Origin: Methanosphaera sp. ISO3-F5
Lineage (GTDB): Archaea; Methanobacteriota; Methanobacteria; Methanobacteriales; Methanobacteriaceae
Assembly (NCBI RefSeq): GCF_034480035.2
Contig: NZ_CP118753.2
Coordinates: 1,156,389 to 1,220,388, forward strand
Reading direction: 5' to 3'
DNA length: 64,000 nucleotides
Shown here: positions 20-35,383 of the stretch, piece by piece
Layout: each line of letters opens with the position of its first letter
Numbering within the stretch: position 1 is the stretch's first letter
Program-made: the position numbers and the translations under genes
The notes under the pieces: generated by a model
Database searches by the model: none
Told to the model about the DNA's origin: nothing
The model's input: the letters and a program-made list of their open reading frames with translations, nothing else

Positions 20-229
20 ATGACCAAATTACCATTAACACCATTAGGAAGAATTATAAAAAAAGGCGGAGCAAAAAGAGTAAGTAAAAGTGCAGAAGAA
101 GCACTATCAGACTACCTAGAAGACATATCACAAGACATAACAATACTCGCACTAGAAAATGCAAAAAAAGAAGGAAGAAAAACCCTAAAATCACAAGACA
201 TAGAAGCAGCATACAACGACTTATTCTAA
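20..229 (+). CDS. archaeal histone (HMf/HTa-like), 69 aa
   Basis: A compact histone-fold protein that wraps DNA as dimers and larger oligomers in archaeal chromatin. The 69-residue length equals the HMf family. It opens with the typical LPLTPLGRIIKKGGAKRVS segment, in which buried leucines and prolines are followed by the DNA-contacting Arg/Lys loop. The middle helix is SAEEALSDYLEDISQDITILA. The end, GRKTLKSQDIEAAYNDLF, carries the conserved K-T-L-K/DI motif of the second DNA-binding loop and helix 3. No N- or C-terminal tail is present. The start follows a weak GAGTG site. It seems to be a single gene; the upstream promoter lies outside the window. Family assignment is secure, but which histone paralogue it is cannot be told. 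Confidence 0.95.
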   Translation: MTKLPLTPLGRIIKKGGAKRVSKSAEEALSDYLEDISQDITILALENAKKEGRKTLKSQDIEAAYNDLF

Positions 230-299
230 AACAACCAAAATAACTTCATAAATAAAAAAACAAACAGTATTTATCAAAAAAAACAGGTGAAGAAAAAAA

Positions 300-611
300 A
301 TGATAATTACAACAACAGAAAACATACCAGGAAAAAACTATGAAATAATAGGCCTAGTACACGGAAACAACATACAATCCAAAAACTTCTTAAGAGACTT
401 CACACAAGGACTACGAAACATAAAAGGAGGAGAACTAAAAGCATACACAGACATGATGATAGAATCAAGAAGTGTAGCAACCGATCGAATGATTGAAGAA
501 GCACAACAATTAGGAGCAGATGCAATAATAATGGTACGATACGATACCAGCAGCATAGTAGAAAACTCCTCCGAAGTACATTGCTATGGAACAGCAGTAA
601 AATTTATTTAA
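300..611 (+). CDS. YbjQ/UPF0145 (DUF74) family protein, 103 aa
   Basis: A small cytoplasmic protein of the YbjQ family, which forms pentameric beta-barrel rings; the biochemical role is unknown, though the family is often labelled heavy-metal binding. Supporting features are an N-terminal strand with GKNYEIIGLVHGNN, the central R-N-I-K-G-G-E-L-K-AYT segment, the helix R-M-I-E-E-A-Q-Q-L-GADAIIMVRYD and a C-terminal YGTAVKF, all in family order. Length is normal. A GGTGAAG ribosome site sits just ahead of the ATG. The last 8 bases overlap the stop end of the convergent flavin reductase gene, so the two transcripts must read into each other. Confidence 0.88.
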   Translation: MIITTTENIPGKNYEIIGLVHGNNIQSKNFLRDFTQGLRNIKGGELKAYTDMMIESRSVATDRMIEEAQQLGADAIIMVRYDTSSIVENSSEVHCYGTAVKFI

Positions 612-1605
612 AATGAAAACAATTACTGGATTTAACTCTGTAACAATTATTACACAGTTTACATCTAGAAACACCATTCTTATTTTTTTTCCAATCAACT
701 AAAAAATCCGCCTGAGCAACAAAAGGCCTATACATTGAAACAAAATCAATATCATCCCCATTCAAAACATTATTAATTTTATCCAAACTATCAAAGCCAC
801 CACCAACAATAACAGGCAAATTAATCCTCTTCTTTAACTCAACAGCATAATCAATTAACTCATTATTCTCCTCATCTTTAGTAAAATACAAAGGAGATAA
901 CGGCTTAGTCACTTGAATACTATCAGCACCATACTCTTCTAACAATTCACATATCTTAATACTTTCCTCTTTATCAATTCCACCCTTACGGCCATCATAA
1001 GCATTAACCCTACAATTAATATGCAAATCAAAATTATCCTTAATAACCTTAATACTTTCCAAAACAATTCTCAACCTAGCAAAAGTATCCCCACCAAAAT
1101 CATCATCTCTCTGATTATAATAAGGATTAATAAACTTACTTAAAAAGAAATTATTACCCAAAGCTAACTGAATACCATCAAAACCAGCAAAAGATAACTT
1201 TTTAGCAGCAATAATTAAATCAGTTTGAATTTTACGAATATCATCCAAAGTTAAATCATTAACAGAAACATTCATATCAATGCCACGATTAAATTGCACA
1301 AACTCCAGCTGAGCAAGAATAGGAACATTATAAGAATGAACCATATCAGTAATTCGTCTAAAATCACCAATAAAATTAGGATCATAAAGTTTATGAGCAT
1401 ACTCATTAAACTTATTCTTAGGATACAATGAAATTAACTCACTAGTAATTAAGCCAACACCACTTTTAGCAATACTTTCATACCTATCATATACATCAGA
1501 TGTAATTTTATTATTCTTAGTCTCTGACTCCCATAAACCAGTTCGAACAACACGACTTTGTAATTTCAAGTCACCAAGATTAGTCTCATCAAATAAATCT
1601 TTCAT
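604..1605 (-). CDS. old-yellow-enzyme family NADH:flavin oxidoreductase homologue with altered active site
   Basis: A TIM-barrel flavoprotein related to old yellow enzyme and 2,4-dienoyl-CoA reductase. The N-terminus (LGDLKLQSRVVRTGLWES), the NQRDDDFGGD loop near residue 170 and the LPVIVGGGF phosphate-binding strand near residue 270 all match the family. The stretch that normally carries the substrate-binding His pair (HAAHGYL) reads LALGNNFFL, so the two His are replaced by Ala and Asn. The last 20 residues hold C-x2-C-x2-C-x7-C, possibly an Fe-S or zinc site. I chose ATG 1605, which has AGGAGC ten bases upstream; an in-frame TTG at 1614 is too close to that site. The gene is convergent with the YbjQ gene. 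The substrate cannot be inferred, and the enzyme may have lost classical ene-reductase activity. Confidence 0.85.
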   Translation of the reverse strand: MKDLFDETNLGDLKLQSRVVRTGLWESETKNNKITSDVYDRYESIAKSGVGLITSELISLYPKNKFNEYAHKLYDPNFIGDFRRITDMVHSYNVPILAQLEFVQFNRGIDMNVSVNDLTLDDIRKIQTDLIIAAKKLSFAGFDGIQLALGNNFFLSKFINPYYNQRDDDFGGDTFARLRIVLESIKVIKDNFDLHINCRVNAYDGRKGGIDKEESIKICELLEEYGADSIQVTKPLSPLYFTKDEENNELIDYAVELKKRINLPVIVGGGFDSLDKINNVLNGDDIDFVSMYRPFVAQADFLVDWKKNKNGVSRCKLCNNCYRVKSSNCFHFK

Positions 1606-1741
1606 AAACAACAAGCTCCTACTTTTTAATAATATTTATGTAACTTTTTAAATTAAAAATTTATGAATTAAACAAAAAATAGAAAAATACATCAAAACAT
1701 ATACATGAAACACATGAAAAAACACACTCCAGAACAAAAAA

Positions 1742-1879
1742 GAAATCACTACAAAAAATACAAATGAATTGCTACAAAAAATTAAATGAATTGCTACAAA
1801 AAATATAAATGAATTGCTACAAAAAATATAAATGAATTGCTACAAAAAATATAAATGAATTACTACAAAAAATATAAAT
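1742..1879. repeat. 22-24 bp tandem repeat, six units
   Basis: Six head-to-tail copies of a unit close to GAATTGCTACAAAAAATATAAAT, starting at about 1742, 1766, 1788, 1811, 1834 and 1857. The first copy is the most diverged (GAAATCACTACAAAAAATAC); the others differ by one or two bases or a 1-base length change. The array lies in the gap between the flavin reductase promoter and the broken ATPase gene, ending 20 bases before its ATG. No reading frame crosses it. Confidence 0.9.
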
Positions 1880-1899
1880 AGAAATGATGAAGTGTTAAA

Positions 1900-3174
1900 A
1901 TGGAATACATGAAACGATTAATAGATAGGAAATAGACTTCTATCTGGATGTTATAGGTGCTATATTAATTGTTGGACCAAAGTGGTGTGGAAAAACAACA
2001 ACTGCGGAACAACATTCTAAAAGTATGATTAAATTACAGGATAGAGATAAATCAACATTATATTTACAATGGGCAGAAATCAGACCATCCAAATTATTAG
2101 AAGGTGAAAAACCACGATTAATTGATGAATGGCAAGAAGCACCTATTATATGGGATACAGTTAGAAATAGTGTAGATGAAATTAATGAAGATGGATTATA
2201 TATACTAACTGGTTCTACAGTAATTGATGAATCTGAAAAAATGCATTCAGGAGCAGGAAGAATTCATAGATTAATTATGAGACCAATGAGTTTATATGAA
2301 AGTGGAGAATCAAATGGAAAAATATCAATTATGGATTTATTTGATAATCCCGAATTAGATATTGATGGTATTAAATCAGATTTAACTATAGAACAATTAA
2401 TATTTGCTGCATGTAGGGAGGTTGGCCTGCAAGTTTAAGAAAAAAAACAGAACTTGCCAAATTATCTATAGTATATTCCTATTTGGATAATATTTGTAAT
2501 ACTGATGTTTCAAGAGTAGATGGTGTTAAAAGAGATTCTAAAAGAGTTATTAATTTGTTAAGATCGTATGCAAGGAATATTGGTACTAATGTTAAGGATA
2601 CAACAATATTAGCTGATATTAAAACAAATTTTGAGGATATATCATTACAAACATATTATTCTTATGTTGATTCATTAAAAAGATTATTTGTTATTGATAA
2701 TATTGATGCCTGGACTCCTAATATTCGTTCTAAAACATCAATTCGTTCTAATACGAAAAAATTGTTTATAGATCCATCTATTGCTGTTGCAGCACAAAAT
2801 TTGGATCCTCATTCTTTGGAGAATGATTTGAATACTTTTGGTTTTATCTTTGAAAACTTATGTATTAGAGATTTAATTGTATATTCTAGTCCTTCAAATG
2901 GTGTTGTTTCTTATTATAAGGATAGGTTTGGTTTAGAAGTTGATTGTGTGTTGCATTTAAGGGATGGAAGATATGGTTTAATTGAATTTAAATTAGGTAG
3001 CAAAGAAGAAGAAAAGGGTGCTCATAATTTATTAAAAATTAATGACTTAATAGTAAGAAGCATGAAGAAAATGGTATGATAAAACCTAGTTTTTTAGCAA
3101 TTATTACTGCTGGTGAATTTGCTTATACTAGGAGTGATGGTGTGAAGATTATTTCTATTGGTTGCTTAAGATAA
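1900..3174 (+). pseudogene. broken AAA ATPase of the DUF4143 (COG1373) family
   Basis: Three reading frames joined end to end restore one protein of about 420 residues. The N-terminal MEYMKRLIDRK runs into a stop at 1933. After a one-base shift the frame reads AILIVGPKWCGKTT (Walker A) and continues to LIDEWQEAP, ILTGST and the DUF4143 linker. A second shift near 2415 is needed to read GGWPASLRKKTELAKLS. A third near 3067 is needed to reach the C-terminal NGMIKPSFLAIITAGEFAYT. Each shift is explained by one missing base in a short A or G run. Relatives are ATPases with a C-terminal nuclease-like fold, often mobile and of unknown role. An intact relative from another subgroup lies at 58249-59481. 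True decay is likely; sequencing error is the alternative. Confidence 0.85.
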
Positions 3175-3258
3175 TTATTTCTATTGGAAAGTTTTTATTA
3201 TTTTTTTTACATTTATGAATTTTATCTTCTTGTTTTTCATTGTTTTTGGGGTATTTTT

Positions 3259-3294
3259 TTTTACTTCGCTATACACCGATATAACGAAGTAAAA
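3259..3294. terminator. 14-bp inverted repeat between convergent genes
   Basis: The arms TTTTACTTCGCTAT (3259-3272) and ATAACGAAGTAAAA (3281-3294) pair at 13 of 14 positions around an 8-base loop, with T-runs on the left flank. The element sits in the 302-base gap between the broken ATPase and the 3' end of bioB. A bidirectional terminator is the simplest reading, although archaeal termination mostly needs only U-tracts, so a protein-binding site is possible. I see nothing else coding in 3175-3476. Confidence 0.55.
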
Positions 3295-4484: not shown

Positions 4485-5429
4485 ATGGGTGAATATATTA
4501 ATATTTTTAACTACAAATTAATCATTAAGTGTAGATTTTTAAAATATATTGGTTTATGGGAGGGAATATATATTTTTAATAATTTGGAATATTTTAAGAA
4601 AACATCAGAAACTCTTAAAGAGGCCACTTTAGCTGAGACTAATCGGTCTGCATTAACAGAGACGTTACTTTTTATTCTTTTATATGTGGCAATGATACTT
4701 ATTACTGGATTATTCATGTATGTAATAACATTGGGTATTCCTGAGAACACTGATTCTTATTTACTGTTATCATTGGGTGGTTTTATTGTTTCAATTATTT
4801 TTACCATTTTTGCAGTTACAAAGATTGAAAAACGTAGCTTAAGGAGTTTAGGTTTTAGTCGTGAAAATATTGGATCTAATTTATTGAAAGGATTTGTTAT
4901 TGGCTTTGTAATGTTTGTGCTAGTAGTTTTTATTGGTATGATTTTGGGTCAATATACTTTTATGGGATTTGATTTTTCATCTTTGTATCTGGCTATTCCA
5001 TATATTATAGTGTTTATTATTCAGCCGTTTGGGGAAGAGATTTTTACTAGGGGTTGGATTATTCCATTATTTTCAAAAAATTATAGTGTGTTTACTGCTA
5101 TTGTGGTTTCTACTTTATTTTTTGTAGTGGGGCATGTTGGTAATAATGGTTTTAATATTGTTGCATTGGTTAATATTTTGTTGATTGGTGTTTTATTATC
5201 ATTATTGTTTTTAAAATTTGATAATATTTGGATTTGTGGTGCTTTTCATTCTGCTTGGAATTTTACTCAAGGTTATCTTTTTGGTTTTAATGTTAGTGGT
5301 CTTAATATGAGTTCTTTACTTCATTTTAGTCAAGCTGCTCCTAATATAGTTAATGGTGGTAGTTTTGGTCCTGAAGCGGGTTTGATTACTACATGTATTA
5401 GTGTTCTGATAATAATTTATTTGTGGTAA
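4485..5429 (+). CDS. CPBP family intramembrane metalloprotease (CAAX protease-like)
   Basis: A polytopic membrane protein with the three motifs of the CPBP/Abi family: GEEIFTRGW (EExxxR) about residue 185, FFVVGHVGN (FxxxH) about 215 and HSAWNFTQG (HxxxN) about 262. These form the metal site of Rce1-type proteases. In bacteria such proteins process peptides or give bacteriocin immunity; the role in methanogens is unknown. Six to eight hydrophobic helices are visible. The start is uncertain. ATG 4485 gives an unusual basic N-terminus. A TTG at 4584 starts a more typical N-terminus (LEYFKKTSETL), but the GGGAGGG upstream is about 19 bases away. The gene is followed by T-rich terminator tracts. 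Confidence 0.85.
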   Translation: MGEYINIFNYKLIIKCRFLKYIGLWEGIYIFNNLEYFKKTSETLKEATLAETNRSALTETLLFILLYVAMILITGLFMYVITLGIPENTDSYLLLSLGGFIVSIIFTIFAVTKIEKRSLRSLGFSRENIGSNLLKGFVIGFVMFVLVVFIGMILGQYTFMGFDFSSLYLAIPYIIVFIIQPFGEEIFTRGWIIPLFSKNYSVFTAIVVSTLFFVVGHVGNNGFNIVALVNILLIGVLLSLLFLKFDNIWICGAFHSAWNFTQGYLFGFNVSGLNMSSLLHFSQAAPNIVNGGSFGPEAGLITTCISVLIIIYLW

Positions 5430-15359: not shown

Positions 15360-15698
15360 AATTATCAACTAACAACTTTTTTTTATAATAATGCTTTTTG
15401 ATATAATTATATTTATCTAAATAGTATTTAATTAATTCTAATAGTCATATGCTTTCGAAAGAGTTTATTACAATTAATGCTAATAGTTAATATAAAATAT
15501 TTTTTTTGAACTTTTTATCATATTTCAATATATGGATGTATTATGTGTTTATTAATATTGCGATTAATAAGGATTTTTTATTAAAACAATTAAATAATAA
15601 TGATAATATTGTTTAGAGATTAATAATTACTTAAATTTACTAAAATATTAAAAAAACATATTAATAAAGAATTGGATATATTAATATATAAAGTTATA

Positions 15699-15830
15699 AT
15701 TCTCAGGGCGAGGTGAAAGTCCTCACCGGTGGTAAAAAAAATTATTTATAAGTCCACGTGCAAAGAAAATATTTTTTGCTGATTTGGTGAAAATCCAAAA
15801 CCGACGGTTAAAGTCCGGATGATAGAGAAT
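15699..15830 (+). ncRNA. FMN riboswitch (RFN element)
   Basis: All hallmark segments of the RFN aptamer are present in order. P1 forms from ATTCTC (15699-15704) and GAGAAT (15825-15830). AGGGCGAGGTGAAAGTCCTC, ACCGGTGGTA and AAGTCCACG come next. GCTGATTTGGTGAAAATCCA and ACCGACGGTTAAAGTCCGGAT complete the core. A variable A/T-rich hairpin replaces the usual P3 tip. Between aptamer and ribB is a 74-base expression region with an AGCCCTG segment and the GAGGAGAT ribosome site. Binding of FMN should reduce ribB expression; whether by early termination or by masking the ribosome site is not clear. A TATA-like tract at 15676-15690 may be the promoter. Confidence 0.95.
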
Positions 15831-15904
15831 ATAAAATATCTAATTCTTATTTTATTAGCCCTGTTTCATTAAAAAAAATAATAAAAGATAATAGAGGAGA
15901 TAAT

Positions 15905-16537
15905 ATGGAACATGAAGAAATGTTAACAGGTAATTACAAAGAAAGAGTAGAAACTGCAGTAGAAGCTATAAAGAACAAAAAAGGTGTAATAGTAACCGAT
16001 GACGAATCACGAGAAAACGAAGGAGATATGTTCTTTTCTGCTCAATATGTTACTAATGAACAAATGGCATTATTAATAAGAGAAGGTAGTGGAATAGTTT
16101 GTCTATGTATGACAGAAGAAAAGGCAGATGAACTAGAATTACCATTAATGGTAGAAGACAATACAAGTACATATGGTACAGGATTTACAATTACAATCGA
16201 AGCAGCAGAAGGAGTAACTACAGGGGTTTCAGCTGCTGATCGTGTAACAACTGTTAGAGCCGCATCCAATGATGATGCTAAACCTGAAGATTTACATCAT
16301 CCTGGTCATGTATTCCCCTTACGTGCTAAAAATGGTGGAGTACTTGAAAGGGATGGTCATACTGAAGCTAATATAGAATTAATGAAACTTGCAGGTCTTA
16401 AACCAATGGGAGTTTTATGTGAAATAACTAATCCTGATGGTACTATGGCTAGAATGCCTGAGATTATCGAGTTTTCTAAAGTTCATGATATGCCGATAGT
16501 TACTATTAATGATATTATTCAGTACATATCTGAATAA
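15905..16537 (+). CDS. ribB: 3,4-dihydroxy-2-butanone 4-phosphate synthase
   Basis: Converts ribulose 5-phosphate to 3,4-dihydroxy-2-butanone 4-phosphate and formate, giving the four-carbon unit of riboflavin. The active-site loop [10 protein letters not shown] is at residues 32-41. [12 protein letters not shown]-type and TTGVSAADR segments follow. [11 protein letters not shown] and RDGHTEAN near residue 150 supply the other metal and substrate ligands. It is monofunctional (210 residues), with no GTP cyclohydrolase II domain, as expected in an archaeon. GAGGAGAT precedes ATG 15905. It lies directly behind an FMN riboswitch and has no downstream rib partner, so only this step is under that control here. 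The sequence looks bacterial-like, suggesting the riboswitch and gene travelled together. Confidence 0.96.
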
Positions 16538-27291: not shown

Positions 27292-27840
27292 ATGAATAAA
27301 AAACGTTGCGAATATTTTGCTGATAAGGAAGATATTTATATTGAATATCATGACAATGAATGGGGTACTCCTGTTTATGATGATCAGAAATTGTTTGAAA
27401 TGCTTCTTTTAGAATGTTTTCAAGCTGGTTTATCCTGGATTACTATTCTTAAGAAACGTGAACATTTCCGTGAAGCATATGATGATTTTAATTTAGAGAA
27501 GATTATATGTTATGATGAGAATAAAATTGAAGAACTCATGAATAATAAGTTAATAATACGAAATAGGAGAAAGATTGAAGCATCAATCAATAATGCCCGT
27601 ATATTTAAGGATATTCAGAAAGAATTTGGTAGTTTTTCAGATTATCTCTGGTCTTTTACTGATAATAAGGTTCTTAAGGATACTGATGAAAATTATCTTA
27701 CAAAATCCAATACTTCTGATTTATTATCCAAGGATTTAAAAAAAAGGGGAATGAAATTTGTGGGTAGTGTAACAATTTATTCTTATCTGGAAGCTGTTGG
27801 TATCATCAATAATCATACTCATGATTGTTATAGGTACTAA
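27292..27840 (+). CDS. tag: DNA-3-methyladenine glycosylase I
   Basis: Removes 3-methyladenine from alkylated DNA in base-excision repair. The N-terminal KKRCEYFADKEDIYIEYHDNEWG gives Cys and His zinc ligands, and the C-terminal NNHTHDCYRY gives the other two. Around residue 43, LLLECFQAGLSWITILKKR holds the catalytic Glu and the helix that contacts the base. 182 residues is normal. ATG 27292 follows AGGTGC. The last four bases overlap the convergent DUF2284 gene. It is bacterial in type and uncommon in archaea, so it may have been acquired. Confidence 0.93.
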   Translation: MNKKRCEYFADKEDIYIEYHDNEWGTPVYDDQKLFEMLLLECFQAGLSWITILKKREHFREAYDDFNLEKIICYDENKIEELMNNKLIIRNRRKIEASINNARIFKDIQKEFGSFSDYLWSFTDNKVLKDTDENYLTKSNTSDLLSKDLKKRGMKFVGSVTIYSYLEAVGIINNHTHDCYRY

Positions 27841-28433
27841 TATAATAATCCCATGAGTAATGTTAGATATGATGGAATTTTTCCTTCATCTTTATTTATC
27901 CATAATATCTCTGTATCAAATATTTCTTCTGTGGTCTTTGAAACTAGTGCTCCTAATGATTCCATACTATATAACTTGTTTTTAGGATACCTGCATGGTT
28001 TTTTGTCTTTTCTTGTGCATTTATTACATAAATTACAGTATCCTGTGGATAATATCATTGCATCATCGTATTCTTCGGGGTTCATCACTTTTTTATGTAG
28101 TTCCTGGAGAATTTTACGTTTTTCATTATATAATGTTATGTTTAGTATGATGTCTATGTCTCCTTTTGAAAATTTGTTTTCTGTAATGAATTCATCATAA
28201 TTTAGTTTTAACAGGATTAAATCTATGTTAGCATATTTTTTCCATACTTTTAGTATGTCATCTTCGAAGGGTGGACATGACCAGTTGTTATTGTATTGGT
28301 CACATATTTTGCATGTTTTTTCTGTAATTGTAAAATCCACATAGTCTTTATAGTATTTTGAGACAGGCATTGTTTTTGTTACTTTTTCTAGTGTATATGA
28401 TTTTTCAAAGCGTAGCATTTGATTATTATACAT
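27837..28433 (-). CDS. DUF2284 metal-binding protein
   Basis: About 198 residues with two Cys clusters diagnostic of DUF2284: CKICDQYNNNWSCPPF near residue 40 and GYCNLCNKCTRKDKKPCRYP near 132, the latter resembling a 4Fe-4S or zinc site. The rest is alpha/beta. The family is common in methanogens and clostridia; its reaction is unknown. AAGGAG lies seven bases before ATG 28433. It overlaps the tag stop by four bases. Confidence 0.85.
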   Translation of the reverse strand: MYNNQMLRFEKSYTLEKVTKTMPVSKYYKDYVDFTITEKTCKICDQYNNNWSCPPFEDDILKVWKKYANIDLILLKLNYDEFITENKFSKGDIDIILNITLYNEKRKILQELHKKVMNPEEYDDAMILSTGYCNLCNKCTRKDKKPCRYPKNKLYSMESLGALVSKTTEEIFDTEILWINKDEGKIPSYLTLLMGLLY

Positions 28434-28670
28434 TTTAACTCCTTACCTGTAATTTTATTATCATTTAATATCATTTTATTTATTCAGTATTATTGAATAA
28501 TCATAAGTTTTTATATTTCATTTTATTGATATACTCATGATTAATAATAATTATATGTTCCAAAATACTTGAAAAAAGAGTCTTTTTTTAAATCAAAACT
28601 GATTTATATAAAGTTTTATAGAAAAAAATCTAAAAATACTGATTATTATAGCAAAATACATTTATATAAT

Positions 28671-28678
28671 TGATTATA
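28671..28678 (+). promoter_or_regulatory. TATA box of the ubiD-hyuA-hyuB operon
   Basis: TTTATATA preceded by an A-rich BRE-like AAAATAC, 76 bases ahead of the UbiD start. The surrounding gene-free stretch 28434-28753 has no other clear element apart from a short imperfect repeat AAGAGTCTTTTTTT. One promoter probably serves the four-gene cluster 28754-34291. Confidence 0.5.
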
Positions 28679-28753
28679 TAATGATTACTAGAAAACCTGT
28701 TATAAAATAATATATTATAATAATCATAATCAATAAATCAATGGTGAAAATAT

Positions 28754-30124
28754 ATGTCAAAACAAGATTGGAGAAACTTAATAAACAAATGGGAAAAAGA
28801 TGGAACAATAAAACACGTAACAGAAGAAGTAAAAAAAGAATATGAAATAAGCACATTCATGATAGAACTAGAAAAACAAAACAAATACCCAGTAATGATA
28901 TTTGACAACGTAGAACAAAACAAAATACCAGTAATCACAAACGTACTAGGAACACGTGAAAGATTTGCACAAGCAATGGGCGTTGAAGGAAAAAATGTTG
29001 CAGAAGAATATGCAAAAAGAATAAAAAATCGTATCGACACATTTAAAATAATAGAAAACCCACCATTTCAGGCAAATTCAATGATAGGAGACGAAGTAGA
29101 CTTATACAAATTACCAATAATAACCCATTTCCCAATAGATGCAGGACCATACTTAACTAGTGGACTAGTAATAGCCAAAGATCCAGAAAGCGGTTCAGAA
29201 ACATTAGGCTTCCATAGAATGCAACTAAAAGGAAAAGATAAACTAGGCATATCATTACATTCCAGACAAAGATTATGGGAATACTTCCGAAGAAGCGAAG
29301 AACGAGGAGAAAACCTTGAAGCCGCTATCGTAATAGGAGTACATCCAAACATATCACTCGGTTCACAAGCACTAGTACCATACCATAAAGGAAAATATGG
29401 AGCAATAGCAGGATTATTCGGAGAAGAACTAGAACTAGCAAACTGTGAAACAGTAGACATACAAGTACCAGCATATGCAGAATTTGTAATAGAAGGAGAA
29501 ATATTAGCAAATGTAAGAGAAAAAGAAGGACCATTTGCAGAATTTACAAACTATGCATGTCATAGAAGTACTGAAAACTTATTTAAAGTCAAAGCAATAC
29601 ATTACAGAGAAAAACCATTATTCCATGATTTAACACCCGGATTTAGCAGCGAACACATAACAGTAGTAGCAATACAAAGAGAAGGAGACGTTCTTAATGC
29701 ACTTAGACAAACATTACCTAATGTTAAAGCAGTAAGTTGTCCAGTATCAAGTTGCGGAATATTCCATTGCTACATATCCATGAAGAAAATAGCCGAAGGA
29801 CAGGCAATGCAAGCAGTATTCGCAGCATTTGCTGTTGACCATCATATTAAACTGGCAATAGTAGTGGATGATGATGTGGACGTATTTAATGAACAAGAAG
29901 TATTATGGGCTATGGCAACAAGATTACAGGCAGATAAAGATGTAATTATAATACCTCAACATATGGGTATGGGTGAAACTTTAGACCCATCTACTGATGA
30001 ATTAAGCAGAACCAGTAAGATGGGAATTGATGCAACCAAACCATTAGAAGGATTTTCACCTAAAATAGAAATGAATCCTGACGTAGAAGAAGCAGTTAAA
30101 CGTTTAAACAAATATGTAATGTAA
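28754..30124 (+). CDS. UbiD family decarboxylase
   Basis: A 456-residue prenyl-FMN-dependent (de)carboxylase of the UbiD fold. Key segments are HRMQLKGKDKLGISLHSRQ (cofactor and metal contacts) near residue 155, AIVIGVHPNISLGSQ near 195, VREKEGPFAEFTNYACHRS near 258 carrying the catalytic Glu, and MATRLQADKDVIIIPQ near 393. The family acts on aromatic or alpha,beta-unsaturated acids. In archaea one UbiD homologue decarboxylates trans-anhydromevalonate 5-phosphate. Genomic linkage to HyuA/HyuB homologues and an LpdD-like protein suggests a different, operon-specific substrate. GGTGAA precedes the ATG. No flavin prenyltransferase gene (ubiX) is nearby. Function beyond the family is inference. 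Confidence 0.9.
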   Translation: MSKQDWRNLINKWEKDGTIKHVTEEVKKEYEISTFMIELEKQNKYPVMIFDNVEQNKIPVITNVLGTRERFAQAMGVEGKNVAEEYAKRIKNRIDTFKIIENPPFQANSMIGDEVDLYKLPIITHFPIDAGPYLTSGLVIAKDPESGSETLGFHRMQLKGKDKLGISLHSRQRLWEYFRRSEERGENLEAAIVIGVHPNISLGSQALVPYHKGKYGAIAGLFGEELELANCETVDIQVPAYAEFVIEGEILANVREKEGPFAEFTNYACHRSTENLFKVKAIHYREKPLFHDLTPGFSSEHITVVAIQREGDVLNALRQTLPNVKAVSCPVSSCGIFHCYISMKKIAEGQAMQAVFAAFAVDHHIKLAIVVDDDVDVFNEQEVLWAMATRLQADKDVIIIPQHMGMGETLDPSTDELSRTSKMGIDATKPLEGFSPKIEMNPDVEEAVKRLNKYVM

Positions 30125-30138
30125 GAAAGTGATAAAAA

Positions 30139-32202
30139 ATGTTAAAAATTGCAATAGATACTGGTGGAACATTCACAGATTATACCTCAATAGGTAGTTT
30201 AAACAATGAATCTGAAGAAAAGATTTTTATCAAAAATCCAACAAATCATAAAAATCCAGCTGATGGAATTATTAATGGTTTAAAAGAGTTAGCTGATAAA
30301 TGGGGTTGTAATCTGGAAACATTATTATCAAATACCTCACAGATTAGTCATGGAACAACACTTGCCCTTAATGCTTTAATAGAAAAGAAAGGAGTTAAAA
30401 CTGCACTGTTCACGACCGAAGGTTTTCGTGATGCATTAGAAATCAGACGTTCACAGTTAGATAACCAGTGGGATATTCGAGCAGTTACTCCACCCGTATT
30501 AGTACCTAGAAGATTACGTTTAGGAATAACTGAAAGAATAAAATATGATGGTACAATCATTAAAGAATTAGATGAAGACAGTGTAAGAAGAGCATGCAGG
30601 AAATGTGCCAGGGAAAATGTTAAATCAATTGCTGTATGTTTCTTATTCAACTTTTTAAATCCTGAACATGAAAGACGTGTTAAAGAAATTATAAACGAGG
30701 AATTACCTGATGTATTTGTATCATTATCTAGTGATATTTCTCCACAGATAAGAGAATATGAAAGAACCACTACTACTGTTATTAATGCATATGTTACTCC
30801 TATAGTTTCCACGTATTTAGAAGATTTGAAGAATAAATTATTCGAGTATGGATGGGATAAGCCAATTAATATTATGATGAATAGTGGTGGTTTATCTGAT
30901 ATTCCAACTATGAATAAAATATCAGCTAAATCATTACTTTCTGGTCCTGCTGGTGGTGGAATTGGTAATGAAAATCTTAGTAAAATTCTTGGAAAGAAAC
31001 ATTTAGTACTGGGTGATATGGGTGGTACTAGTTTTGATTTGCATATTATAGACAATAACGAAACTAAGTTAGTACCTGAATCTCGTATAGAGGGTTATCC
31101 TATTACCTTACCTATGATGGATATTAATTCTATTGGTGCCGGTGGTGGAAGTATTATCAGTGTTGATGAGGGAAAAAGAGTTCTTGTTGGTCCAGAATCT
31201 GCTGGTAGTGTACCAGGTCCTGCATGTTATAATCTTGGAGGAGAAAAACCTACTATTACTGATGCATTGTTAGTTCTTGGACTTATTGATGAAAGTAATT
31301 TTTTAGGTGGTAAAATTGAGTTATCCAAGGAAAATGCTGTTAATGCCATAAGGGAATATGTTGCAGCTCCCCTTGATATTAGTGTTGATGAAGCTTGTAT
31401 CATCGTTTATAAGGTTGCATGTGAACTTATGGCTGATTCTCTCAGATTAATTACTATGAAAAGAGGTAATGATCCTCGTGATTATAGTCTTGTTAGTAGT
31501 GGTGGTGCTTTTGGACTTTTTGCTGCTAATATTATGGATTCTTTAAAGATGAACGAGGTTTTAATTCCAGTGCAGGGGCCTGTTTTCTGTAGTTGGGGAA
31601 TGCTTGGTGCTAAACGTAGGTATGATATAACAAAAAGTTTCTTTATGGAGAAAAAGGATTGGAATGCTGATATGATTAATAGTATGATTATGGGCATGAA
31701 AGAGGAGTGTATTGATGAATTATTAAAGCTTGGCGTATCCCTTGATGATTGTAGTTTTGAGTTAAATCTTGAAATCAGGTATATTGGTCAGCATCATGAG
31801 ATAAGTATTCCGGTTAATAAGTTAGAATTTGATGATGGTGATGTTGATATTATTGATGAACTGTTCCATGATACTCATTATGATATATATCAGTATTCTC
31901 AGATAGAAAATGATTGGGAAATTATTAATTTACATTTAGCAGGTTATGAAAATGATATAGTTAATCCATTGTTTAATTTTGATGAGAATAATGTTGATAA
32001 TTATACTGTTACTATTAATGGTGAATCATTTAATTGTAGTGGAAGTATTGATGTTAGTGTTTATTCAGAAACAGATTTGGATAAAGTTATTAGAGGACCT
32101 GCTATAATTAAGTTTGATTATACTAGTGTTTTAGTTCCTAAAGGTTTTGTTTCTGTGTTGTTGGATGATGGTATGTTAAGTATTAAACTGGAGGATGATT
32201 AA
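30139..32202 (+). CDS. hydantoinase/oxoprolinase family subunit A (HyuA/acetone carboxylase beta-like)
   Basis: An ATP-using subunit of the ASKHA fold, 687 residues. Phosphate-1 motif IDTGGTFTDY is at residues 5-14. QISHGTTLALNALIE near 70, LLSGPAGGGIGNENL near 270, VLGDMGGTSFDLHI near 294 and SIGAGGGSIISVDEGKRVLVGPESAGSVPGPACY near 335 (shortened here to landmarks) complete the nucleotide site. In N-methylhydantoinase, 5-oxoprolinase and acetone/acetophenone carboxylases this subunit phosphorylates the substrate or bicarbonate. It begins 15 bases after ubiD, behind AAGTGAT, and its stop overlaps the ribosome site of hyuB. The pairing with UbiD is unusual. Confidence 0.9.
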   Translation: MLKIAIDTGGTFTDYTSIGSLNNESEEKIFIKNPTNHKNPADGIINGLKELADKWGCNLETLLSNTSQISHGTTLALNALIEKKGVKTALFTTEGFRDALEIRRSQLDNQWDIRAVTPPVLVPRRLRLGITERIKYDGTIIKELDEDSVRRACRKCARENVKSIAVCFLFNFLNPEHERRVKEIINEELPDVFVSLSSDISPQIREYERTTTTVINAYVTPIVSTYLEDLKNKLFEYGWDKPINIMMNSGGLSDIPTMNKISAKSLLSGPAGGGIGNENLSKILGKKHLVLGDMGGTSFDLHIIDNNETKLVPESRIEGYPITLPMMDINSIGAGGGSIISVDEGKRVLVGPESAGSVPGPACYNLGGEKPTITDALLVLGLIDESNFLGGKIELSKENAVNAIREYVAAPLDISVDEACIIVYKVACELMADSLRLITMKRGNDPRDYSLVSSGGAFGLFAANIMDSLKMNEVLIPVQGPVFCSWGMLGAKRRYDITKSFFMEKKDWNADMINSMIMGMKEECIDELLKLGVSLDDCSFELNLEIRYIGQHHEISIPVNKLEFDDGDVDIIDELFHDTHYDIYQYSQIENDWEIINLHLAGYENDIVNPLFNFDENNVDNYTVTINGESFNCSGSIDVSVYSETDLDKVIRGPAIIKFDYTSVLVPKGFVSVLLDDGMLSIKLEDD

Positions 32203-32203
32203 A

Positions 32204-33925
32204 TTGAATGCTGAGGATATTATTAATCGTACTGTTATAGCTAATAGGTTAGATAGTATTACACAGGAAATGGGTATTTCATTGGAACATTCTGCTCATT
32301 CACCTATATTTGCTGAAGCTTGTGATTTTGCTTGTTGTATCTGTGATTATAAGGGTGATCTTGTCAGTCAGTTAAGTGGTATTCCTATTCTTGCTACTGC
32401 TGGTTCATTTAGTGTTAAATCAGTTATTAAAAAATATGGTGCTGATATACATGATGGTGATGCTTTTATTATAAATGACCCATATGATGGTGGAAATCAT
32501 TTACCAGACATAGGAATTATAACACCAGTATTTAATGATGATGAATTATTATTCTTTTGTGTAAGCAGAGCACATCATGGTGATATTGGTGGTTCAACTG
32601 CGGGCAGTTATAATCCAAAAGCTACAGAAATATTTCAGGAAGGAATACGAATCCATCCAACCAGAATAGTAGAAGACAATAATATAAATAATGACATAAT
32701 GGACTTAATAACATTAAACACTAGAAATCCATCAATGTTAAAAAGTGACTTACTAGCACAAATGGGTTCAAATAATGTTGCAAGAAATCGTTTAGAAAAA
32801 ATGATTAAAGAATACGGAAATGAACTGATAAAAAAAGTAGTAGAAGAAAACTTAAACCAAGCAGAAATATTAACCAAGAAAAGAATACTTGAAGTACCAG
32901 ATGGTGAATACTCTGCAACCAGTTATATTGATGATGACAGCTTCCAGAAGGAACATATAAAAATACATGTAACAGTAAAGATTAAAGACGATAATTTAAC
33001 AGTGGACTTCACTGGAACAGATAAACAAGTGAAAGGATTTGTAAATACAAGTATTGTCACAGCAACAGCTGCTAGTGGTATTGCATCTTTATGGTTTTTA
33101 GGTGCAGATATTCCACGAAATGGAGGGGCATTCAATGCTATAAATGTGGTTCTTCCAAAGGGGTCACTGGTTAATCCATATGAACCAGCACCAATGACAT
33201 TATCCACATTAACTCCTGCTAGTGAGATAATCGGAACAATTTTCAAAGCATTGAATAAGGCTGTTCCTGACAGGTTACCTGCAGGTTACGGTAATTATAT
33301 TGGACCATCATATTATGGTATTGATCCTCGTAATGGCAGATTTTATGTTGGATTTTCATTCTGTTCACTTGGAAGTGGTGGCGCTATGAATGGATTAGAT
33401 GGTAAACCTTACATGTCACCAATGTCCAATTATGGTGGTGTTAAAGCACCAAATATTGAATCTAATGAAGTACAGTATCCACATATTACATTAAGACATG
33501 AAATGGAATGTGACACTGCAGGTGCTGGAGAATTCCGGGGCGGTGCAGGTATTGAATATGCTTTCCAGATTTATGATGAAAGCAGTGAAATTGTAATGTT
33601 TGGTGATGGTATTTATAATGCACCATATGGATTGAATGGAGGTAAAGATGGATCCTTTAATAAACCTTTATTTAAGCATGATGGTAAATGGATACAAACA
33701 GAATCAAAGGAATATCCACGTAAAGTATCTAAGGGTGATATAGTATCCATTCATTCTGCTGGTGGAGGTGGATATGGAAATCCATATAAACGTGACATGA
33801 ATAAAGTATTGGAAGATTATCTTGATGATTTAATATCAAAAGAAAATGCTCTTAAAGTTTATGGTGTTGTAATAAATGATGATGATACACTCAATATTGA
33901 AGAAACTTTAAAAGTTAGGGGTTAA
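32204..33925 (+). CDS. hydantoinase/oxoprolinase family subunit B (HyuB/acetone carboxylase alpha-like)
   Basis: The partner of the upstream HyuA-like subunit, about 573 residues. Landmarks are GISLEHSAHSPIFAEACDFA near the N-terminus, FIINDPYDGGNHLPDIGIITP near residue 90, SRAHHGDIGGSTAG near 122 and FQEGIRIHPTRI near 145, the metal- and substrate-binding face. AGEFRGGAGIEYAF and SAGGGGYGNPYKRD lie in the C-terminal third. TTG 32204 is chosen: it lies nine bases after GGAGG, whereas ATG 32195 abuts that site. The arrangement after hyuA is strictly conserved in this family and indicates a heteromeric enzyme. Which reaction it runs (amide hydrolysis or carboxylation) cannot be read. Confidence 0.9.
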   Translation: MNAEDIINRTVIANRLDSITQEMGISLEHSAHSPIFAEACDFACCICDYKGDLVSQLSGIPILATAGSFSVKSVIKKYGADIHDGDAFIINDPYDGGNHLPDIGIITPVFNDDELLFFCVSRAHHGDIGGSTAGSYNPKATEIFQEGIRIHPTRIVEDNNINNDIMDLITLNTRNPSMLKSDLLAQMGSNNVARNRLEKMIKEYGNELIKKVVEENLNQAEILTKKRILEVPDGEYSATSYIDDDSFQKEHIKIHVTVKIKDDNLTVDFTGTDKQVKGFVNTSIVTATAASGIASLWFLGADIPRNGGAFNAINVVLPKGSLVNPYEPAPMTLSTLTPASEIIGTIFKALNKAVPDRLPAGYGNYIGPSYYGIDPRNGRFYVGFSFCSLGSGGAMNGLDGKPYMSPMSNYGGVKAPNIESNEVQYPHITLRHEMECDTAGAGEFRGGAGIEYAFQIYDESSEIVMFGDGIYNAPYGLNGGKDGSFNKPLFKHDGKWIQTESKEYPRKVSKGDIVSIHSAGGGGYGNPYKRDMNKVLEDYLDDLISKENALKVYGVVINDDDTLNIEETLKVRG

Positions 33926-33928
33926 AGT

Positions 33929-34291
33929 ATGTTTAAATTTTCATTTGGTTCAGGAAATACATTAGTTGATTATACTATTGAAAGAGTAGGTGATGATTTA
34001 CATATTTCTATAACCGGTGGTGATATTCATATTGGTGGTATTGGTTTAGTAAGTAATGAAAGTTATAATATACTATCAGTTCAGAATCATAGAGAGTATG
34101 AACTTATACAACCATTAGCTAAAAGATTAACAAAATATGAGGATATAACTATCTTAATAAGTGCTGGTATACATGTTGATGACATAACTTTAGATGAGAT
34201 TAAAGAGATTGTTGAAAATAATAATATAGCAATAGATAAGATAGACAAATTTATTTGTTCAGAATATGAAATGTTTCATGAATTTATGTAA
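33929..34291 (+). CDS. LpdD-like small protein (putative prenyl-FMN enzyme partner)
   Basis: A 120-residue protein with GSGNTLVDYTIERVGDDLHISITGG, then HIGGIGLVS, HREYELIQPLAKRLTKYEDITILISAGIHVDDIT and a helical end. This order (T-x-V, DLxVxITGG, HIG-, H-x-E-x-x-I-x-P-L-A, GIHxDDI) resembles the LpdD/AroD-type subunit that helps gallate-type UbiD decarboxylases acquire prenylated flavin. It starts three bases after hyuB, so it belongs to the same transcript as UbiD, even though two hyu genes lie between. The identification is from pattern memory, not alignment. If right, it ties the HyuA/HyuB pair functionally to UbiD. Confidence 0.6.
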   Translation: MFKFSFGSGNTLVDYTIERVGDDLHISITGGDIHIGGIGLVSNESYNILSVQNHREYELIQPLAKRLTKYEDITILISAGIHVDDITLDEIKEIVENNNIAIDKIDKFICSEYEMFHEFM

Positions 34292-34449: not shown

Positions 34450-34489
34450 TTAATCATAATAATAATTAAATAAATATTACGTGGTTAAT

Positions 34490-35383
34490 ATGACTGAATA
34501 TTATGATAAAATAAGACGTGTACTATTAATAGTCCTAATCAGTAATTTAATAATAGGTTTAGCAAAAGTACTTTATGGAATTAATACAAACGTTCTAAGT
34601 ATAACTGCTGATGGTTATGACTCTTTATTAGATGCATTGACTAATATTATAGGAATAATAGCAGTATACATTTCAGGAAAACCATACGATGCAGAACACC
34701 GTTATGGTCATACAAAAGTAGAAACTTTTGCATCAATTCTAATATCTGCAACATTATTTATAGTAGCCTATGAAATTATCACAACAGCTATAGATAGATT
34801 CTTTAATCATATAGTACCAAGTATTAGTATATCCACATATAGCGTACTAATAATTACACTTATTATCACAGTAGTAATATCACGTTATGAAAAGAAAATG
34901 GGTGAAAAATACAATAGTAATCTTTTAATATCAGATAGTGAACATATTAAAAGTGATGCATTAGCAACTGGAATAATAATTCTAAGTTTAATATTTATAC
35001 AGAATGGACTAACAATTCTTGATCCAATATTATCCATATTAATTTCATTAATGATTATGAAAACAGGAGCATCAATACTTAAGACCAACCTAGACATCTT
35101 ATTAGACATAAACATTATTGACTGTGATATTATAAAAGATGAATTAAAATTTATTTATGGAGTTAATAACATACATAATGTAAGAACTCGCGGAACAAAT
35201 TCTGCAGTATATGTTGATATGCATCTAGTAGTTGATGATAATTTAACTATCGAACAGGCACATCAAATATCTAAATCTTGTAAAAATACATTATATAAGA
35301 AGCATCCAGAAATCAAAGATATATTAATTCAACTGGAACCAAATAGTGGTTTATATGATGAAATAAACTATAAACATTTATAG
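34490..35383 (+). CDS. cation diffusion facilitator (CDF) metal exporter
   Basis: A six-helix exporter of divalent metals, 297 residues. Helix 2 carries ADGYDSLLDALTN (DxxxD) and helix 5 carries SEHIKSDALAT (HxxxD), the tetrahedral transport site of the Zn/Cd/Fe-type CDFs such as YiiP; Mn-type CDFs have DxxxD in both. The cytoplasmic tail (about residue 215 onward) ends with VYVDMHLVVDDNLTIEQAHQIS and ILIQLEP, the usual ferredoxin-like metal-sensing domain. ATG 34490 is chosen because GTGGT precedes it; an in-frame GTG at 34481 is possible. The palindromic array upstream implies metal-responsive control. Confidence 0.92.
   Translation: MTEYYDKIRRVLLIVLISNLIIGLAKVLYGINTNVLSITADGYDSLLDALTNIIGIIAVYISGKPYDAEHRYGHTKVETFASILISATLFIVAYEIITTAIDRFFNHIVPSISISTYSVLIITLIITVVISRYEKKMGEKYNSNLLISDSEHIKSDALATGIIILSLIFIQNGLTILDPILSILISLMIMKTGASILKTNLDILLDINIIDCDIIKDELKFIYGVNNIHNVRTRGTNSAVYVDMHLVVDDNLTIEQAHQISKSCKNTLYKKHPEIKDILIQLEPNSGLYDEINYKHL

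Follow-up and report, generated by a model that had tools for sequence, protein, structure and literature searches.

The gallate decarboxylase of Lactobacillus plantarum pairs LpdC, a UbiD-family enzyme, with LpdD, which binds the reduced form (prFMNH2) of prenyl-flavin mononucleotide (prFMN) (PMC10865409). HmfF, a furan-2,5-dicarboxylate decarboxylase (6h6v/6h6x), is another UbiD-family enzyme. CapAB caprolactamase and the ATP-dependent hydantoinases/oxoprolinases are two-gene alpha/beta enzymes with ATP motifs and a metal tetrad (PMC8453981, PMC5214803). Here, we describe relatives of these systems encoded side by side in a methanogen. The window, i.e. the whole analysed stretch of 64,000 nucleotides from Methanosphaera sp. 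ISO3-F5 (NZ_CP118753.2, positions 1,156,389 to 1,220,388), carries genes for UbiD, HyuA, HyuB and an LpdD-type protein in one head-to-tail run on the + strand (28754-34291). Sequence comparisons indicate that Methanosphaera acquired these four genes by lateral transfer and that they make up the enzymatic core of an operon from Bacillota.

As in LpdC/LpdD, a UbiD-family enzyme is accompanied by an LpdD with conserved metal-site histidines and the same fold. LpdC, however, belongs to another UbiD branch and comes without HyuAB, an energy-coupling factor (ECF) importer or a B12 riboswitch, and the window UbiD lacks the metal ligands. HmfF is the closest solved UbiD, and its heteroaromatic-type His and Arg are found in the window UbiD (H301, R309), whereas R331 is replaced by G335, the metal ligands are lost and the gene neighbours differ. 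HyuAB shares the architecture of CapAB and the hydantoinases but scores below all NCBIfam equivalog cut-offs and is tied to UbiD and LpdD. The Bacillota operon also resembles the YkoEDC-type ECF importers, with a fused double ATPase, T and a YkoE-fold S component; unlike in YkoEDC, the S component is outside Pfam and NCBIfam families, the control is by B12 and not thiamin, and the importer is absent from Methanosphaera. Finally, the cobalamin riboswitch (RF00174, PMC3766115) precedes all scanned bacterial operons whose upstream sequence was long enough, yet we found no mention of UbiD, HyuAB, LpdD or hydantoinase genes as members of its regulons. The enzyme families are each known. To judge from the searchable literature, which mostly lacks subscription papers, their combination, its control by B12 and a UbiD branch without the metal ligands seem not to have been described; within that literature, the view from the sequence-only reading that no such system has been described still holds.

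The bacterial operon and its transfer

In Bacillota, the genes follow the order ECF ATPase, T, S, UbiD, HyuA, HyuB, UbiX, LpdD (loci L037, L039, L102, L103, L140-L142), with two fused domains in the ATPase. A rearranged order, HyuA, HyuB, S, UbiD, ATPase, T, with UbiX and LpdD nearby, occurs in L056 and L135. UbiD-HyuA-HyuB adjacency recurs in distant Bacillota in two different gene orders; in Desulfosporosinus and Thermincola, LpdD is located elsewhere, mostly adjoining another UbiD. Distance matrices of UbiD, HyuA and HyuB from 31 loci were closely correlated (Mantel r=0.91, 0.92 and 0.98), and 0 of 2000 permutations reached these values. Adjacency and co-evolution mark UbiD, HyuA and HyuB as one evolutionary unit, which makes a joint pathway on one compound, as proposed from the sequence alone, the likeliest reading. 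That UbiD and HyuAB act in one pathway is strongly supported, and the four genes are not separate in most relatives.

The maximum-likelihood UbiD tree placed the Methanosphaera copies as one clade deep within Bacillota, beside clostridial metagenome-assembled genomes, and the HyuB tree likewise put them within Bacillota. Methanosphaera UbiD is 70-76% identical to bacterial UbiD. From this nesting we infer that the gene set was acquired by lateral transfer. The window UbiD was present in 6/20 Methanosphaera genomes and in 6/139 Methanobacteriaceae genomes, all six being Methanosphaera, as judged from the named loci, so the set reflects a patchy transfer from Bacillota and not a trait conserved across Methanobacteriales. 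LpdD occurs in five of the six operon genomes (G120 lacks it), compared with 1/133 other genomes of the family, the one being G126, also a Methanosphaera (Fisher p=9e-8). The importer and the operon UbiX are absent from the Methanosphaera set, and one UbiX is encoded elsewhere in the genome, outside the operon. Related major facilitator superfamily (MFS) transporters are located near the operon in Methanosphaera (L066, 12363-13742) and Anaerosolibacter (L057, 3042-4484); it is possible that they serve as an alternative importer.

The S component had no match in Pfam or NCBIfam, and the assignment of its substrate via Pfam was abandoned. The best fold match of its model (predicted local distance difference test, pLDDT, 86) was YkoE (5edl), a vitamin S component. 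Strong S components were found in 16/349 genomes drawn from the Desulfosporosinus phylum; of these, ten have UbiD-HyuAB next to it, two encode UbiD but no HyuAB beside it, and the other four lack both. In L143 (6104-11272) and L144, an aldehyde ferredoxin oxidoreductase-family gene takes the place of UbiD-HyuAB after the riboswitch-controlled importer. Distant S-component homologues with ECF genes were also observed in clusters with allantoinase-type genes and no cobalamin riboswitch (L146, L147), of which the L146 cluster encodes allantoinase, ureidoglycine aminohydrolase and a member of the hydantoin racemase family. It is possible that this ECF system imports allantoin. Catabolism of allantoin or another cyclic ureide was rejected as the whole story of the operon, as the L146 cluster with its distant S component has no B12 riboswitch. 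In the related genomes of L140, L141 and L142, one in-frame TAG is reported at the S component. Pyrrolysine insertion elements are present in L143 and L038. In L136, a long array of clustered regularly interspaced short palindromic repeats (CRISPR; 65-3263) lies immediately upstream of the operon region.

Cobalamin riboswitch

A cobalamin riboswitch was found upstream of the operon in 31/31 bacterial loci of this UbiD branch with sufficient upstream sequence (Rfam threshold 31.5 bits). The RF00174 matches scored 88-128 bits and lay on the same strand, mostly 13-470 bases upstream, ahead of ECF-A, of HyuA in rearranged operons, of S in L053, or of UbiD. The element accompanies both operon orders and also the distant copies in Chloroflexi (L058) and Desulfomonile (L053). 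In L061, where the ECF importer and UbiD-HyuAB are split, each half carries a separate riboswitch. In the same genomes, a scan of 135 kb surrounding eight further UbiD/LpdD loci detected no cobalamin riboswitch. The evidence that the bacterial operon is under B12 control is therefore strong. Genes controlled by cobalamin riboswitches belong to B12 synthesis, uptake of B12 or its precursors, cobalt uptake, or isozymes of B12-dependent enzymes (PMC3766115). Such control shifts the likely purpose of the operon from general catabolism towards cobamide supply.

The archaeal window contains no cobalamin riboswitch. The idea that a remnant RNA element precedes the archaeal operon was considered and dropped, as cmscan found no Rfam element in the leader at 28434-28753 (E<=1). 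In one Methanosphaera (L067), a gene for the cobalt chelatase CbiK (15473-16255, 275 bits) is located directly downstream of the operon.

Further riboswitch sites were observed. In L145, a UbiX-LpdD pair is flanked by two cobalamin riboswitches. An azaaromatic (yjdF) riboswitch in L057 (14549-14650) lies near the operon's LpdD end. In the archaeal genome, an FMN riboswitch (window 15695-15834, + strand, 117 bits) precedes a RibB-like gene (15905-16537).

UbiD and LpdD

The first gene (28754-30124, + strand) encodes 456 amino acids. Pfam, the PDB match and the residue table point to a UbiD-family prFMN decarboxylase, an accessory paralogue of the HyuAB-associated subfamily. Its N, middle and C domains scored 63.7, 204 and 111 bits against Pfam cut-offs of 24.3, 23.3 and 24.2, and the closest solved structure was HmfF (6h6v, E=7.6e-88). 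The catalytic triad R155/E258/E263 is intact throughout the HyuAB-type subfamily, and prFMN-dependent (de)carboxylation by the window UbiD is predicted. The HmfF-type His, associated with heteroaromatic preference, is conserved as H301, which we count in favour of a (hetero)aromatic acid as the substrate; R309 is also kept, and HmfF R331 aligns with G335.

The usual metal ligands of the prFMN site are Asn168, His191 and Glu233 in Fdc1. In our table of 52 UbiDs, the HyuAB-type branch has T150, R173 and K214 at these Asn/His/Glu positions (A150 in L058), whereas Asn and Glu are present in 33/33 other UbiDs compared and in the Bathyarchaeal relative L062. The ligand His is absent from some known UbiDs as well. 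In UbiD enzymes, two metal ions anchor the prFMN phosphate (PMC8988006, PMC7976604). The presence of R173 and K214 at the would-be metal positions suggests that UbiD of this branch may bind the phosphate directly.

A second UbiD in the genome, 34% identical to the window UbiD, is present in nearly all Methanobacteriaceae and is presumably the mevalonate-pathway enzyme of methanogens. We rejected this role for the window UbiD, as the near-universal second copy fits it and the window copy occurs in 6/139 genomes.

The last gene (33929-34291, + strand; 120 amino acids) encodes a predicted LpdD-type prFMNH2-binding chaperone, an assignment based on Pfam, profile, fold and alignment. The protein scored 79.4 bits against PF21758 (LpdD fold; cut-off 27), and a profile of 16 relatives retrieved the PDB chains of L. 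plantarum LpdD with E=4.9e-17. The six top PDB matches of its model (pLDDT 93.8) were all LpdD (8pzo/8po5), with a template modelling (TM) score of about 0.8. The LpdD metal ligands H35/H61/D63 correspond to H34/H54/E56; both histidines are invariant in 16 sequences, and Glu replaces Asp. The LpdD likeness noticed from the sequence alone is thus borne out by profile and fold. Genomic linkage suggests that the small protein may bind reduced prFMN and serve UbiD. That two hyu genes separate it from ubiD is correct but no longer odd, because the bacterial order is UbiD-HyuA-HyuB-UbiX-LpdD and the archaeal copy lacks UbiX.

HyuAB

HyuA (30139-32202, + strand; 687 amino acids) is the predicted ATP-binding subunit of an ATP-dependent hydantoinase/oxoprolinase-type enzyme, and HyuB (32195-33925, + strand; 576 amino acids) its metal-site subunit; both assignments are based on Pfam, PDB matches and motifs. 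In Pfam, HyuA matched Hydantoinase_A with 267 bits and the N domain with 165 bits, and HyuB matched Hydantoinase_B with 507 bits. The top PDB match of each was caprolactamase (6yra, E=9e-116 for HyuA; E=1e-78 for HyuB with the corresponding subunit). The ATP motifs DTGGT (7), DMGGT (293) and GSVPGP (356) of HyuA follow the family pattern DxGGT, DxGGT, GxxPGP, and HyuB carries the Asp-His-Asp-His metal tetrad of CapB (CDFA, NHLPD, HHGD). Against caprolactamase and N-methylhydantoinase, HyuA scored 391 and 374 bits, compared with 309 and 242 bits against the carboxylases; the HyuB values were 268 and 241 compared with 127 and 61 bits.

HyuA and HyuB are two genes in the order A-B, and the operon has no gamma-subunit gene. 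As the two-gene composition without a gamma subunit marks hydrolases and not carboxylases (PMC5214803), we classify HyuAB, by its sequence features, as an amide-hydrolase type closest to caprolactamase and N-methylhydantoinase. The pair scored below every NCBIfam equivalog cut-off. We rejected its identification as caprolactamase (538.9 and 346.2 bits, cut-offs of 1000) and as acetone or acetophenone carboxylase (327 and 147 bits, cut-off 1500; no gamma gene in the operon). In L145, which lacks adjacent HyuAB, a gene for a metallo-beta-lactamase-fold hydrolase (4554-5360) follows UbiD.

Locus architecture

The measured intergenic gaps are 14, -8 (overlap) and 3 bases. An alternative TTG start of HyuB, right after the HyuA stop, would give a second gap of about +1. 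Of the gaps of 15, about 1 and 3 bases read earlier, the last therefore stands, the second does so only with the TTG start, and the first was one base too long. The leader and promoter region (28434-28753, + strand) contains a TATA-like TTTATATAA at 28661, ahead of UbiD, found by eye in very AT-rich DNA. With this motif, a single promoter for all four genes is plausible.

The left border of the inserted module is a DUF2284 gene (27837-28433, - strand), whose orthologue in genome G126 adjoins the right-border gene. The right border, outside the module, is a cation diffusion facilitator (CDF) efflux gene (34481-35383, + strand). In G126 (L174, about 2765-3121), an orphan LpdD, 65% identical, sits between both border genes without UbiD-HyuAB; by eye, its first metal His (H34) is replaced by Arg. 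We could not use G126 as a clean empty site, since the orphan LpdD is there and loss of ubiD-hyuAB or its later insertion beside lpdD are both possible.

Proposed function and alternatives

Our overall best explanation, to which we give about even chances, is that UbiD, HyuAB and LpdD process an imported (hetero)aromatic acid for cobamide supply. Upon cobamide shortage, a small (hetero)aromatic carboxylic acid would be taken up via the ECF importer. UbiX would make prenyl-FMN, LpdD would deliver it to UbiD, and UbiD would take the carboxyl group off the imported acid. HyuAB would open a cyclic amide, or a carbonyl of similar kind, in the same compound in an ATP-driven reaction, either before or after decarboxylation. 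The resulting compound, most likely a precursor of the lower-ligand base, would then enter the synthesis or salvage of cobamides. In Methanosphaera, where the importer and the operon UbiX are absent, the single UbiX of the cell would provide the cofactor; the cobamide role may have been kept in this archaeon, which has no riboswitch. Only tentatively do we propose the more specific form, an undescribed route in which prFMN decarboxylation and ATP-driven ring hydrolysis turn an imported heterocyclic acid into a cobamide building block, most likely the lower-ligand base, by means of a UbiD without the usual metal site, and which passed from Clostridia to gut methanogens.

Several observations weigh against the cobamide explanation. 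The riboswitch shows a response to B12, not the production of B12 parts. Four genomes have the riboswitch-type importer but neither UbiD nor any HyuB relative. The lost metal ligands of UbiD could mean altered cofactor binding or chemistry. The CbiK gene adjoins the operon in a single Methanosphaera, with a 213-base gap of its own upstream. Moreover, tandem ThiC paralogues resembling bzaA-bzaB are present in roughly half of the bacteria with the operon, so that these hosts probably make the benzimidazole base already. With such candidates in many hosts, the operon does not just stand in for the anaerobic benzimidazole (bza) pathway, and we did not retain that idea.

The alternative that survives best, although we consider it unlikely, is that the operon is a stand-in under B12 scarcity, providing a B12-independent route to the product of a corrinoid enzyme, or another carbon or nitrogen source. 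Every host found is an anaerobe, and several use methyl groups in a corrinoid-dependent manner. Isozymes of B12-dependent enzymes are also one of the four gene classes under cobalamin riboswitches (PMC3766115). Nevertheless, the dedicated vitamin-type ECF importer better suits precursor uptake. We also know of no corrinoid enzyme with a UbiD/HyuAB counterpart.

Less plausible still, the Methanosphaera genes might scavenge nitrogen or carbon from a cyclic ureide or lactam in the gut, without a tie to cobamides and whatever their role in Bacillota. The loss of the importer, UbiX and the riboswitch from the archaeal copy would fit, as would the distant S-component relative within the allantoin cluster. 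However, UbiD, HyuAB and LpdD were kept together, UbiD has retained its high identity to the bacterial enzyme, and CbiK is a neighbour in L067. Purine fermentation, in which an aminoimidazole carboxylate would be decarboxylated and an imidazolone opened, was considered as a further candidate.

We give little credence to a pathway in which HyuAB activates the substrate as a kinase or carboxylates a ketone and UbiD runs in the carboxylating direction, in the manner of phenylphosphate synthase and phenylphosphate carboxylase for phenol. Acetone and acetophenone carboxylases do belong to the HyuAB superfamily, UbiD reactions are reversible, and the hosts live at high CO2, but HyuA and HyuB score far higher with caprolactamase and N-methylhydantoinase, a gamma-subunit gene is missing, and L145 has a hydrolase gene instead of HyuAB after UbiD. 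That the four genes are mere neighbours with no joint function is hardly credible: LpdD alone at the same site in G126 and its absence from G120 would agree with it, but co-evolution, repeated linkage in two orders and the separate riboswitches on the L061 halves already contradict it.

Biological implications

Among acetogens, sulfate reducers and gut methanogens that use methanol, B12-type cofactors are limiting. The ways in which anaerobes acquire the variable lower ligand are only partly known. The gene set described here points to a so-far-undescribed step in obtaining or making these cofactors. The compact riboswitch-controlled module, comprising an importer, a decarboxylase, a chaperone and an ATP-driven hydrolase, makes the missing step directly testable. 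It would also add a UbiD branch with an altered cofactor site, a HyuAB linked to both UbiD and B12, and one more gene exchange between Clostridia and gut archaea.

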